A DNA stretch of 64,000 nt from Candidatus Calescibacterium sp. (GTDB lineage Bacteria; Calescibacteriota; Calescibacteriia; Calescibacteriales; Calescibacteriaceae), in contig JANXBU010000001.1 in assembly GCA_025060505.1 (NCBI GenBank), positions 288,418 through 352,417 on the forward strand, given 5' to 3'. The notes under the pieces are model-generated. The model saw only the letters and a program-made list of their open reading frames with translations, did not search any database and was not told where the DNA came from. Of this stretch, positions 3,980-46,353 are shown piece by piece (position 1 is the first letter of the stretch; each line of letters starts with the position of its first letter). Position numbers and translations under genes: made by a program.

Positions 3980-4076
3980 ATCTTATCTATTCGAGATCTA
4001 AACTTTTGGCAGATCAAAATCTGAAACTTTCCCATATTCCCATAAAAACTTGGAGGAATATACAAAGTATATCCCA

Positions 4077-4784
4077 ATGGAAAAGGATGCAGGAACAATT
4101 TTCTTTGATCTTGACGGAACGCTCGCGGATACATCTGAGGATATATACGAATCTCTAAATAAAACACTTGAAAAATTTCAAATAGATCAAGTACCTTTTG
4201 ATGTAGTGGTTGATTTCATAGGGGATGGCGTGAGACCTCTTATAAGAAAGATATTGGATTATCTCAAAAGAACAAACGAAGAGGAAGAGATAGTCGGAGA
4301 TTTCATAAGAAATTACAGAATAGGAATATCTAAGAAAACCTATATATATCCAGAAGTGATTGATCTTATCTACTCTCTCAAGAGTCTCAGAATTAAAGTA
4401 ATCTTACTCACAAACAAGATCGAAAGTCTGACTATAAAGTTACTTTCAGAACTGTGTATTCTGAATATTTTTGATGGAATTGTATCTGGGGACACCTTCG
4501 ATGTGAAAAAACCATCAGCTGGACTACTTGATAGAATAAAATCAAGGTATGAGATAAATTATCCCATTTTTGTTATTGGTGATGGGCTCAACGATCTTCT
4601 GTTCGCAGAAAATACCGGTGCTATCTTCTTTCTTTCGAAGTGGGGATTCCCAACAAAGAAAGCTGAGGAATACATAAAACAAAACCAAATAAAAAACAAT
4701 ATCTACATTACATCAGAACCGAGTGAAGTAATCCAAATAGTCAAAAATATAATTAAAAAAGATAGATCCTCATGTTTCAGATAA
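4077..4784 (+). CDS. HAD-superfamily phosphatase (phosphoglycolate-phosphatase-like)
   Basis: Motif I is FFDLDGTLADT near the N-terminus, motif II is the VILLTNK strand, motif III the lysine in DVKKPSAG and motif IV VIGDGLNDLLFAE. These are the four catalytic motifs of the Gph-like HAD subfamily, with a helical cap (about residues 20-80) in between. It should hydrolyse a small phosphate ester; 2-phosphoglycolate is the default guess. I chose the ATG at 4077. A TTG at 4050 would add nine residues, but the GGAGG at 4052-4056 lies inside that extension and about 20 nt from the ATG, so neither start has a good ribosome site. Confidence 0.82.
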   Translation: MEKDAGTIFFDLDGTLADTSEDIYESLNKTLEKFQIDQVPFDVVVDFIGDGVRPLIRKILDYLKRTNEEEEIVGDFIRNYRIGISKKTYIYPEVIDLIYSLKSLRIKVILLTNKIESLTIKLLSELCILNIFDGIVSGDTFDVKKPSAGLLDRIKSRYEINYPIFVIGDGLNDLLFAENTGAIFFLSKWGFPTKKAEEYIKQNQIKNNIYITSEPSEVIQIVKNIIKKDRSSCFR

Positions 4785-42325: not shown

Positions 42326-43312
42326 TTATTTTGAACCTTTTGTTTGTTCCTTTGGATGGTCTCTGATAAATTTTTCAATTCTAAGACAAACGAGTTCGGC
42401 GTGTTCAACAAGTCCGCCATGACTACCCTTTGGAAGTATTAATAGTTCAGAGTTTTTTATCTTTCTTGCGATTTTCAGCAGAACATGCAAAGGTGTAAAT
42501 ATATCACTTTCTCCTGCTATTACCAAAGTAGGAACATTTACTTTTTCGAGAATATCTTCAGCAGAATGTTTTTTAGCTTCTATAGCTATTCTCAAAAATA
42601 ATGTGAAATCCATTTTTCTTAGGTTTTCAAAATATTCTGTAAAATCATCTATGTGAGCTAATACTGGGTTGAGGAAGAAGAGCTTTTCAGAAATAAGACC
42701 GACAGTTTTTCCAATTTTGAATGCAAACGAAGGAACCATAATAGAAGCCCATATTTTCTGAGCTCGATCTGGATTCATAAAAGCAAGACTTGCAACAATA
42801 TCAAGAACCTTTTCAGTAATAGGCATATTCATGAAGAATTTAGCTGGATTCTCATATGGTCCCAAAGCTGGTATCAACCCCTTTACCATATCTGGATAAT
42901 TTCTGTAAAATTCAAGTATGACCTGAACACCAAGAGAAAATCCACCGAAAATAGCGTATTTTATACCATTTGCATCGCATACAGCTTTCATATCATCTGC
43001 TAAGGCTTTTATTGAAACATCTTGTGATTTTGGGAACCCGCTCCTTCCGTGCCCTCTGTAATCCCACAGTATAACATCTGTTATGTTTGAGATATAGTCC
43101 TCAACATACCTCCAATATCTTATTGTTGTTCCGATACCATTACATAGCACAAGAGGCCAGAAATTCTCCATTCTTTTGACCGGATAAGTTCTTCTAAACC
43201 ATATATCTGTTCCATCAAAAGATTTAGCGTAACCAGATACAACTTCTCTTTTTACTTTTCTTTCAGATCCAAAGAAGATGTTCCTCGGCTCTACAAATTC
43301 TTTTTTGAGCAT
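42326..43312 (-). CDS. Alpha/beta hydrolase
   Basis: A soluble alpha/beta-hydrolase fold protein of 328 aa. The oxyanion region is LVLCNGIGTTIRYW, ILWDYRGHGRSGFP follows strand four, and the nucleophile elbow is GGFSLGVQ with S126. The acid is D270 in AGESDIFTPL and the base H298 in KGSHGG, so the triad is complete. The helical lid (about 155-235) is large. The substrate cannot be read from the sequence; esterase, haloperoxidase-like and acyl-transfer roles are all possible. There is no signal peptide. The 30-residue N-terminal extension before SFDGTDIWF is common in lipid-acting members. Confidence 0.87.
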   Translation of the reverse strand: MLKKEFVEPRNIFFGSERKVKREVVSGYAKSFDGTDIWFRRTYPVKRMENFWPLVLCNGIGTTIRYWRYVEDYISNITDVILWDYRGHGRSGFPKSQDVSIKALADDMKAVCDANGIKYAIFGGFSLGVQVILEFYRNYPDMVKGLIPALGPYENPAKFFMNMPITEKVLDIVASLAFMNPDRAQKIWASIMVPSFAFKIGKTVGLISEKLFFLNPVLAHIDDFTEYFENLRKMDFTLFLRIAIEAKKHSAEDILEKVNVPTLVIAGESDIFTPLHVLLKIARKIKNSELLILPKGSHGGLVEHAELVCLRIEKFIRDHPKEQTKGSK

Positions 43313-43803: not shown

Positions 43804-43837
43804 ACTGAATTAAGAAATCAACTGAATTGAGAAATCA
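43804..43837 (+). repeat. 17-bp tandem duplication before a start codon
   Basis: ACTGAATTAAGAAATCA (43804-43820) is followed by ACTGAATTGAGAAATCA (43821-43837), differing at one base. The hydrolase ATG follows one base later. Confidence 0.85.
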
Positions 43838-43838
43838 A

Positions 43839-44447
43839 ATGGATGTTGTGAAGGAAAAAATAGGAGAACTTTCTGCTGTTATACACAAAGGTAAGGGAGC
43901 AGTTGTTTTAGCATTACACGGATTTGAATCATTCAAAGATAGCCCAAAATATGTTCTTATGGGTCAGGAATTTCAGAAAGCAGGGTACACCTTTATAAGG
44001 TTTGATTTTCGCGGGTGTGGGGAAAGCCCGGGTGATAAATATGACCTTGAAGGAAGAATAAAGGATGCTCTCTCTGTTTACGGTTATGCGAAGAAGATCT
44101 CCGACAAAATATTTTTCATCGGATCAAGTCTTGGTGGAACAATCGCTATACTGCTTGGAGAAAAAGCAAACGGAGTCGTAGCTTTGTGTCCTCCTATGAC
44201 AGATATTGGGAAAATCAAAATGATTGAAGCTCTTGGAAAAAATCCTCCTCTTCTTATAATACACGGAAACAAAGATGAAACGGTTCAAATAGATGAAGGA
44301 AGAAGAATATTTGAACTTGCCAGAAATCCAAAGGAGTTTTTTGAAGTTGAAGGTGGAGATCACAGATTTTCAAATCCAGAACACCTGAAACTAGTTATAC
44401 AAAAATGCGTTGAGTTCATAAAAAAAGTTGATGAAGGAAGAATTTAG
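43839..44447 (+). CDS. Alpha/beta hydrolase (serine aminopeptidase/DLH-like)
   Basis: A compact 202-residue alpha/beta hydrolase. LALHGFESFKDSPKY gives the oxyanion strand, FDFRGCGESPGD follows, and the nucleophile elbow is GSSLGG with S97. D146 in HGNKDETV and H175 in GGDHRF complete the triad. It resembles small bacterial hydrolases annotated as osmotically inducible C or S15-like, with no lid. I chose the ATG at 43839; the TTG at 43827 lies within a recent duplication. Its 3' end overlaps the upstream reading frame of the THEP1-HAD gene, so the two are probably co-expressed. Confidence 0.85.
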   Translation: MDVVKEKIGELSAVIHKGKGAVVLALHGFESFKDSPKYVLMGQEFQKAGYTFIRFDFRGCGESPGDKYDLEGRIKDALSVYGYAKKISDKIFFIGSSLGGTIAILLGEKANGVVALCPPMTDIGKIKMIEALGKNPPLLIIHGNKDETVQIDEGRRIFELARNPKEFFEVEGGDHRFSNPEHLKLVIQKCVEFIKKVDEGRI

Positions 44448-44454
44448 TTTTAAT

Positions 44455-45651
44455 ATGACTGAAAAACGTTTTGTAGTAATCACAGGGAGACCTGGATCAG
44501 GTAAATCTACTCTGGTATCAAAGCTGGTAAGAAGGCTCGGTGAAATGGGATTTAAGGTTGCAGGAGTTATCACACCAGAGCTAAAAGATCAGAAAAGATA
44601 TGGATTTGAGGTCGTCGGAATTTCATCGGGCAAAAGAAAAATCCTTGCTCTTGAAAAACAGAGATTCAATGAGCAAAGATTATATGGCGAACTTCTGAGA
44701 ACTAAGCATACGCTTGGCAGATACATCGTTTTTCCAGAAAACTTTATAGAAGTTATTGAGATCGAGATGAAGAACCAAGCAGAGGTGTTTGTGATAGATG
44801 AAGTGGGTCCTATGGAAATTCCATCTGGGAATATAGAGAAAAGTTGGGTTGATATGGTGATAAGGTCTGATTTCGGAACTACAATTGCAACTGTGAAGAA
44901 AAACATGGCTCAATCTCTCAGAAAATTTGTCGGAAAAAACTTTTTTGTAGATATAGATGATTTTGGATTTGATTCGGCATACGGTGTTTTGTTAGAAATA
45001 ACAACGGGAACCGATGCTTTTCTGTTTGATCTTGACGGTGTTATAATAGATTCTTCTGAGTTTCATATGAAAGCTTGGATGAAATACTTATCTGAGAAAG
45101 GTATAAATTTTTCGGAGCATGACTTCAAGATGACGTTCGGAAAAAGAAATGAAGAAATACTCAGAGAATATTTTCTAAACAAATCAGAGGAAGAGATCAA
45201 AAAGATGAGTTATGAGAAGGAAGAGATTTACAGAAAACTAGCCAGAGGCAAACTCAGACCAATAGAAGGATCAATTGAAATTCTCAAATTCCTGAAGGAA
45301 AAAGGATTCAGGTTAGCTTTAGTTTCATCTACCCCAAAAGAGAACATAGATTTTATCTTCAAAGAACTTGGACTTGAAGGTATTTTCGAAGCAGTGATTT
45401 CCGGATCTGATATAAAAGCAGGGAAGCCAAATCCTGAATGCTATCTTCTAGCTATAGATAGACTTAAAGTAAAACCTTCCAGATCTTATGTTGTTGAAGA
45501 TTCGGAGCATGGACTTGAAGCAGGTATGAAAGCCGGTGCAAAATGCATAGGGATCACAACCACCCACAAATGCCTTAAAAACGCAGATATTGTGATACAA
45601 AACTTCAAAGAGCTCAAAGAGTTTATATCCAAAATTATTTCTTTGTCATAA
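44455..45651 (+). CDS. THEP1-type NTPase fused to HAD phosphatase
   Basis: Two enzymes share one chain. Residues 1-180 match THEP1-family nucleoside triphosphatases: P-loop ITGRPGSGKST at 9-19, GVITPELKDQ, and Walker B VFVIDEVGPMEI near 111-122. Residues 186-398 match beta-phosphoglucomutase-like HAD phosphatases: FLFDLDGVIIDSSEFHMKAW with D192/D194, the SSTPKENIDF motif II region, KAGKPNPECY with motif III lysine, and VVEDSEHGLEAGMKAGA motif IV. The fusion could link NTP hydrolysis to dephosphorylation of a nucleotide or sugar phosphate; no such pairing is known to me. The ATG at 44455 fits THEP1 starts. Upstream ATG 44431 and TTG 44428 are in frame. Confidence 0.88.
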   Translation: MTEKRFVVITGRPGSGKSTLVSKLVRRLGEMGFKVAGVITPELKDQKRYGFEVVGISSGKRKILALEKQRFNEQRLYGELLRTKHTLGRYIVFPENFIEVIEIEMKNQAEVFVIDEVGPMEIPSGNIEKSWVDMVIRSDFGTTIATVKKNMAQSLRKFVGKNFFVDIDDFGFDSAYGVLLEITTGTDAFLFDLDGVIIDSSEFHMKAWMKYLSEKGINFSEHDFKMTFGKRNEEILREYFLNKSEEEIKKMSYEKEEIYRKLARGKLRPIEGSIEILKFLKEKGFRLALVSSTPKENIDFIFKELGLEGIFEAVISGSDIKAGKPNPECYLLAIDRLKVKPSRSYVVEDSEHGLEAGMKAGAKCIGITTTHKCLKNADIVIQNFKELKEFISKIISLS

Positions 45652-45774: not shown

Positions 45775-46353
45775 TTAAGAATAGTCCTTGTCTTTTTGTG
45801 TATCAACACCTTTATACTCAAGCATAGATTCAAAAAATTCTTTCAGGTTATCTATCAGATCATTTATATCCTCAGCACGCACATATGAAGATACCAAAAG
45901 AATTTTCGTTTCTCCAACTATCATATACTCCAAATTCTTCCCATTTGATGAAGCTTTCGCTCTTTGATATATCCTCATTGATGAAGCTTTCGCTCTTTGA
46001 TATATCCTCAAAACCCTCAAACCTTTTCTCCTAAAAAACTCAAAGCATAAGGGCTCAACGAGCACATCAACAAATCTTCCCCAACCATCTATCTGTCAAG
46101 CTTCTGACTGAATCTTTAGACTGTCTGAGCTCTACAGAAATCTACCTCAACTCTTCTAAAGTCTTTCTATTCTACTCTGAGTTTCTTCTATTCTCATCAG
46201 ATAGATTGGAAATGGCTAACCTATTTTCTTCAGTCTTTGTATCGCTAAACTCTTTTGTTGAGCTATTGTTTTGTTCTCTCTTGCAAGCTCTTGCTGTTGT
46301 ATGATCTGGAATCTCGTCTGATTTTTTCTTTGTTCTTTGTCTTTCCTTAACAT
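45775..46353 (-). pseudogene. Decayed coiled-coil DUF3782-type gene
   Basis: On the minus strand the remnant begins MLRKDKEQRKNQTRFQIIQQ and hits a TAG at 46218-46216. Coiled-coil traces such as MRIEETQSRIERL continue in other frames with further stops. From about 46092 one frame reads DGWGRFVDVLVEPLCFEFF and continues to 45775 with NGKNLEYMIVGETKILLVSS, the C-terminal PD-(D/E)XK region. The catalytic E-x-K is replaced there by a VSS sequence. A 33-bp tandem duplication (RIYQRAKASS repeated) sits inside. It is related in architecture to the intact gene at 2185. Multiple frame disruptions make it a clear pseudogene. Confidence 0.8.
45947..46012. repeat. 33-bp perfect tandem duplication
   Basis: GATGAAGCTTTCGCTCTTTG begins both copies, at 45947 and 45980, and identity continues through ATATATCCTC-like sequence in each. 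It duplicates eleven codons of the pseudogene. Confidence 0.9.

Follow-up and report, generated by a model that had tools for sequence, protein, structure and literature searches.

Proteins of the THEP1 family (PF03266, COG1618) span thermophiles and animals, and in the literature found their cellular role is unknown. The family member aaTHEP1 (1ye8) has a RecA-like ASCE fold with a catalytic glutamate, E107, in Walker B, and hydrolyzes ATP and GTP slowly, at 5-9 x 10^-3 per second (PMC1079890). Kinase activity could not be confirmed for this protein and its cellular role was then unknown; it is basic, and its authors suggested a nucleic-acid role, reporting also that archaeal THEP1 genes adjoin a tRNA methyltransferase gene (PMC1079890). 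In a stretch of 64,000 nucleotides from Candidatus Calescibacterium sp. (contig JANXBU010000001.1, positions 288,418 to 352,417; the window, in whose numbering coordinates are given unless a locus is named), a THEP1 domain is joined in one chain to a C-terminal phosphatase domain of HAD family IA. Both kinds of enzyme are already known, but the combination is new. The fusion is real and conserved and, within the genomes sampled, it is confined to one family.

The fusion gene (44455..45651, + strand) is an uninterrupted reading frame encoding 398 residues plus a stop. The longest open frame in this register starts with TTG and extends from 44428 to 45651 (+), with no internal stops; initiation at that TTG would add 9 residues, and at an in-frame ATG at 44431 it would add 8. 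The ATG at 44455 was taken as the start because it fits the N-termini of relatives. A same-register reading of the other strand was ruled out, as stops occur throughout 44455-45651. A search of 60 related genomes recovered the full-length fusion in all four other genomes of the family (G001-G004), where the copies sit on different contigs and lack internal stops. Since the same full-length chain is found in five genomes from three genera, it is not the product of a frame error or of an assembly join. The initial annotation, made from the sequence of the window, had described both domains with their catalytic motifs in a single 398-residue chain and had named such a join as a finding that would overturn this. 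The Pfam matches, motifs and open frame agree with that description, and the four further genomes dispose of the objection; the two-domain gene is thus confirmed as real and as coding for a single chain. The two domains abut without a long linker, and an AlphaFold2 model of this chain is confident (pLDDT 87, pTM 0.85) and contains both folds.

The four other family genomes encode fusion proteins with 46-53% identity to the one in the window. Both domains pass their Pfam cut-offs in all five fusions, and the catalytic residues of both halves (Walker A, Walker B and HAD motifs I-IV) are invariant. For the closest pair the ratio of nonsynonymous to synonymous substitution rates (dN/dS, NG86) is about 0.14 in the THEP1 half and 0.08 in the HAD half, with dN of about 0.5 and 0.3, respectively. 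These low ratios indicate that both halves are under purifying selection.

The main survey used a profile of the fusion against 386 genomes that span the domain, for the most part with a single genome per family, and full-length matches were obtained only in the five family genomes. THEP1 itself was present in 85 of the 386, these five included, so that in 80 genomes outside the family the opportunity for such a fusion existed. Additional samples drawn by phylum (7, 40, 1, 1 and 245 genomes) yielded no further fusions, nor did a sample of 385 genomes that largely repeats the first set. Altogether about 670 different bacterial genomes were covered, a sample in which the source genome has no relatives between the level of family and that of domain, and the family therefore stands alone. 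Viral contigs gave no relative. Plasmids gave matches to the HAD half only, none of them covering 80% of the fusion protein, and in a conserved-peptide scan of a larger genome collection the best 80 of the matches listed were likewise all to the HAD half only. Searches of open-licence literature turned up no description of the THEP1-HAD architecture. The unfamiliarity of the combination, remarked on in the initial annotation, is thereby borne out. In trees of each half the five fusions lie on one side of a single branch (support 95/92 for THEP1 and 100/99 for HAD), a topology that is consistent with a single fusion event.

The THEP1 half comprises residues 1-186 (44455..45012, +), and its match to PF03266 (NTPase_1; residues 7-157) scores 96.8 bits, the gathering cut-off being 23.9. 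In phmmer comparisons it matches aaTHEP1 (1ye8, E 6.4e-11) and also the human NTPase 2i3b. Its score for the NCBIfam equivalog PRK13695 is below the cut-off (99.6 bits, cut-off 156). Walker A reads GRPGSGKST (44485..44511, +; residues 11-19), with G11, P13, S15, G16, K17, S18 and T19 invariant in the five fusions. The Walker B motif with the ASCE glutamate is DEVGPME in the window protein (44797..44817, +; residues 115-121) and takes the form DE(V/I)GPME across the five, D115 and E116 being invariant; E107 of aaTHEP1 (PMC1079890) is the counterpart in the phmmer alignment. The THEP1 halves are basic, with isoelectric points (pI) of 8.7-9.6. Apart from the fusion, none of the five family genomes has a strong THEP1 gene, and G002 has a second, weak match of 29 bits. 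Family membership predicts that this half is a THEP1-type, RecA-like (ASCE) NTPase that would split nucleoside triphosphates at the P-loop using D115 and E116.

The HAD half (45013..45648, +; residues 187-398, match to residues 187-392) is a family IA phosphatase domain with a C1 helical cap. It scores 131 bits for PF13419 (HAD_2; cut-off 23.8, residues 190-367) and passes TIGR01509 (HAD family IA) with 67 bits against a cut-off of 29.4. Four motifs are invariant among the fusions: motif I, DLDGV (45028..45042, +; residues 192-196), with nucleophile D192 and acid/base D194; motif II, VSST (45322..45333, +; residues 290-293); the motif III lysine, K324 (45424..45426, +); and motif IV, E348 and D349 (45496..45501, +). 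Judged by its family, this half would work through an aspartyl-phosphate formed on D192, D194 serving as acid/base. The HAD half is neutral or acidic in four of the five fusions. A structure search with the whole model listed matches to the HAD half only, and the assignment of the THEP1 fold is accordingly sequence-based. The HAD fold matched with Z of 22-25 over about 210 residues; the best matches were HAD phosphatases with small-molecule substrates, namely alnumycin P phosphatase, CbbY, beta-phosphoglucomutase (bPGM) and a pyrophosphatase. These are tied within about 1-2 Z, and for this reason no single substrate is named.

How specific a label each half can carry differs from what had been supposed. 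The term "beta-phosphoglucomutase-like" holds only as a broad subfamily label. TIGR02009 (PGMB-YQAB subfamily) is missed narrowly (145.2 bits, cut-off 153.35), and the counterparts of bPGM His20, Trp24 and Lys76 are kept. A true beta-phosphoglucomutase was ruled out, since the equivalog TIGR01990 is missed widely (116 bits, cut-off 189) and the position of bPGM Arg49, which contacts the non-transferred phosphate, is Asn232 in all five fusions. The bPGM row in this alignment agrees with the PDB chain over the region compared. For the other half, THEP1 proteins had been credited with hydrolyzing nucleoside triphosphates or phosphorylating nucleosides; the former fits the action of aaTHEP1 on ATP and GTP, whereas the latter finds no backing there, its kinase activity being unconfirmed (PMC1079890).

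The gene directly upstream of the fusion encodes a small alpha/beta hydrolase (Hydrolase_4; 43827..44447, +) and stops 7 bases short of the ATG of the fusion. The same hydrolase gene precedes the fusion in G001, G002 and G003, and is absent from this place in G004. In G002 the hydrolase and fusion frames overlap by 4 bases (ATGA); downstream, the fusion has an overlapping DUF429 gene in G001 and G003. Ahead of the fusion the window has a back-to-back pair of alpha/beta hydrolases (42326-43312, -, and 43827-44447, +), and a similar pair is found at the corresponding place in G002. Beyond the fusion, at 45947-46010, a 31-base unit is present in two exact tandem copies spaced 33 bases; the copies give RIYQRAKASS twice in a minus-strand open reading frame (45775-46065).

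THEP1 was also seen in other composite proteins. A Mut7-C RNase domain is joined to THEP1 in one frame (L134:1097-2362, +), and at L135:1793-3739 (-), L137:2205-3872 (+) and L139:2210-3592 (+) a single frame carries THEP1 and then a SAM (S-adenosylmethionine) methyltransferase, an arrangement seen in two unrelated families. At L136:817-2517 (+), L140:1420-3054 (+) and L138:1966-3048 (-), THEP1 is the C-terminal part of a long protein, the N-terminal part of which lacks a Pfam match and, on visual inspection, looks membrane-bound. For the HAD domain, a sensor histidine kinase frame in an Anaerolineae contig (L022, JAPWUT010000072.1, ~4001-4630) continues in frame into a HAD phosphatase of the FGMRN type with no clear start in between, possibly representing a kinase-HAD fusion.

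We suggest, with moderate confidence, that the fusion protein is a lineage-specific, tethered bifunctional phosphohydrolase that arose in one event and has both sites serving the same small-metabolite step. The HAD half would take a phosphate off a small, soluble ester, be it a sugar phosphate, a nucleotide or a similar metabolite. Both sites would most likely act in the same dephosphorylation or clean-up step, in which the HAD half may receive or remove what THEP1 produces, or a phosphate ester derived from a nucleotide. A coupled nucleotide-phosphate enzyme, as proposed in the initial annotation, is possible. Several points weigh against this proposal. HAD is one of many possible partners of a promiscuous THEP1 domain and, because THEP1 joins so many, coupling of the sites cannot be assumed. 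The neighboring genes name no pathway, the conserved alpha/beta hydrolase being of unknown role and DUF429 likewise uninformative, and the stand-alone HAD relatives share neither a consistent gene neighborhood nor a pathway. In the loci examined outside the family, no THEP1 gene lies beside a HAD gene, so it is the fusion itself that argues for a functional partnership.

The same observations bear on the alternatives. Two independent enzymes might share a chain for convenience, such as co-expression or stability, without a common pathway. The variety of unrelated partners of THEP1, from Mut7-C RNase and methyltransferases to long N-terminal regions that match nothing in Pfam, the standing of HAD IA phosphatases among the commonest generalist enzymes, and the lack of operon pairing of THEP1 and HAD elsewhere would all fit this explanation. 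We nevertheless consider it somewhat unlikely, as the fusion has been kept over large divergence in every family genome examined, with no split forms. If the sites are uncoupled, the fusion is another case of a promiscuous NTPase domain joined to a common enzyme. If they are coupled, the fixed HAD partner is a testable hint to the kind of substrate THEP1 acts on. A stronger version, in which the fusion is a "Rosetta stone" and the HAD half has as its substrate the product or an intermediate of the physiological THEP1 reaction, appears unlikely; were it true, the HAD substrate would reveal the cellular role of THEP1, including that of human NTPCR.

An opposed kinase/phosphatase pair, in which THEP1 adds a phosphate to RNA ends or a small molecule and HAD removes it, would resemble T4 Pnkp or PFK2/FBPase2. 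The order of P-loop and then HAD is that of T4 Pnkp, and the basic THEP1 halves recall aaTHEP1 with its suggested nucleic-acid role; archaeal THEP1 genes adjoining a tRNA methyltransferase (PMC1079890) and the Mut7-C RNase and methyltransferase fusions also speak for such a pair. Against this, the HAD half is C1-capped, its closest relatives act on small molecules, and it is neutral or acidic in all but one of the fusions, making such a pair distinctly improbable. It is less probable still that one half serves as a regulatory sensor, with nucleotide binding and slow turnover by THEP1 switching the phosphatase, or the reverse. The turnover of aaTHEP1 (5 to 9 x 10^-3 per second) would suit a switch better than a metabolic enzyme, and the THEP1 half evolves faster than the HAD half. 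However, full conservation in THEP1 extends to catalytic residues and is not confined to binding ones. The tethered phosphohydrolase acting in one small-metabolite step remains our preferred reading.

Compared with known systems, the fusion shares with the THEP1 family Walker A, DE[IV]G.ME, the GVITPE / GF.V region, the basic character of the domain and the RecA-like ASCE order of elements. It differs from aaTHEP1 and human NTPCR (2i3b) in carrying a HAD domain behind THEP1, and its THEP1 halves are more divergent, scoring 97-121 bits as against 150-186 in typical stand-alone members. With L. lactis bPGM (1lvh) the HAD half has in common the fold, the catalytic Asp pair and the His20, Trp24 and Lys76 positions, but it has Asn232 for Arg49 and an equivalog score far under the cut-off. 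The HAD half also resembles TIGR02009 and a broad set of stand-alone "FGMRN" phosphatases (for instance in G389, G254, Thermogemmatispora and Ktedonobacter), with which it shares the four HAD motifs, the C1 cap, the DGV..DS..H...W stretch and the FGM.N cap loop. The best of these stand-alone relatives are about 41-44% identical to the HAD half, and the highest-scoring ones, which belong to one other phylum (G389, 219 bits; G254, 197 bits), come from loci without a THEP1 gene. The HAD halves fall among stand-alone HADs that have the FGM(R/T)N cap loop in common and come from Chloroflexota, Armatimonadota, Verrucomicrobiota and other groups. The HAD of the family differs from these in always standing behind THEP1 and in forming a well-supported clade of its own.

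T4 Pnkp and mammalian PNKP combine a P-loop kinase and a HAD phosphatase in one chain. Like these, and like HAD fusions such as MtlD, structures of which are among the structural matches of the model, the fusion unites a HAD phosphatase with a second phosphate-handling catalytic domain. No PNK-family model is among the 25 best Pfam matches listed, where THEP1 is strong. Unlike T4 Pnkp and PNKP, the P-loop domain of the fusion belongs to the THEP1/RecA-like family and not to a kinase family, and its HAD domain belongs to a different subclass.
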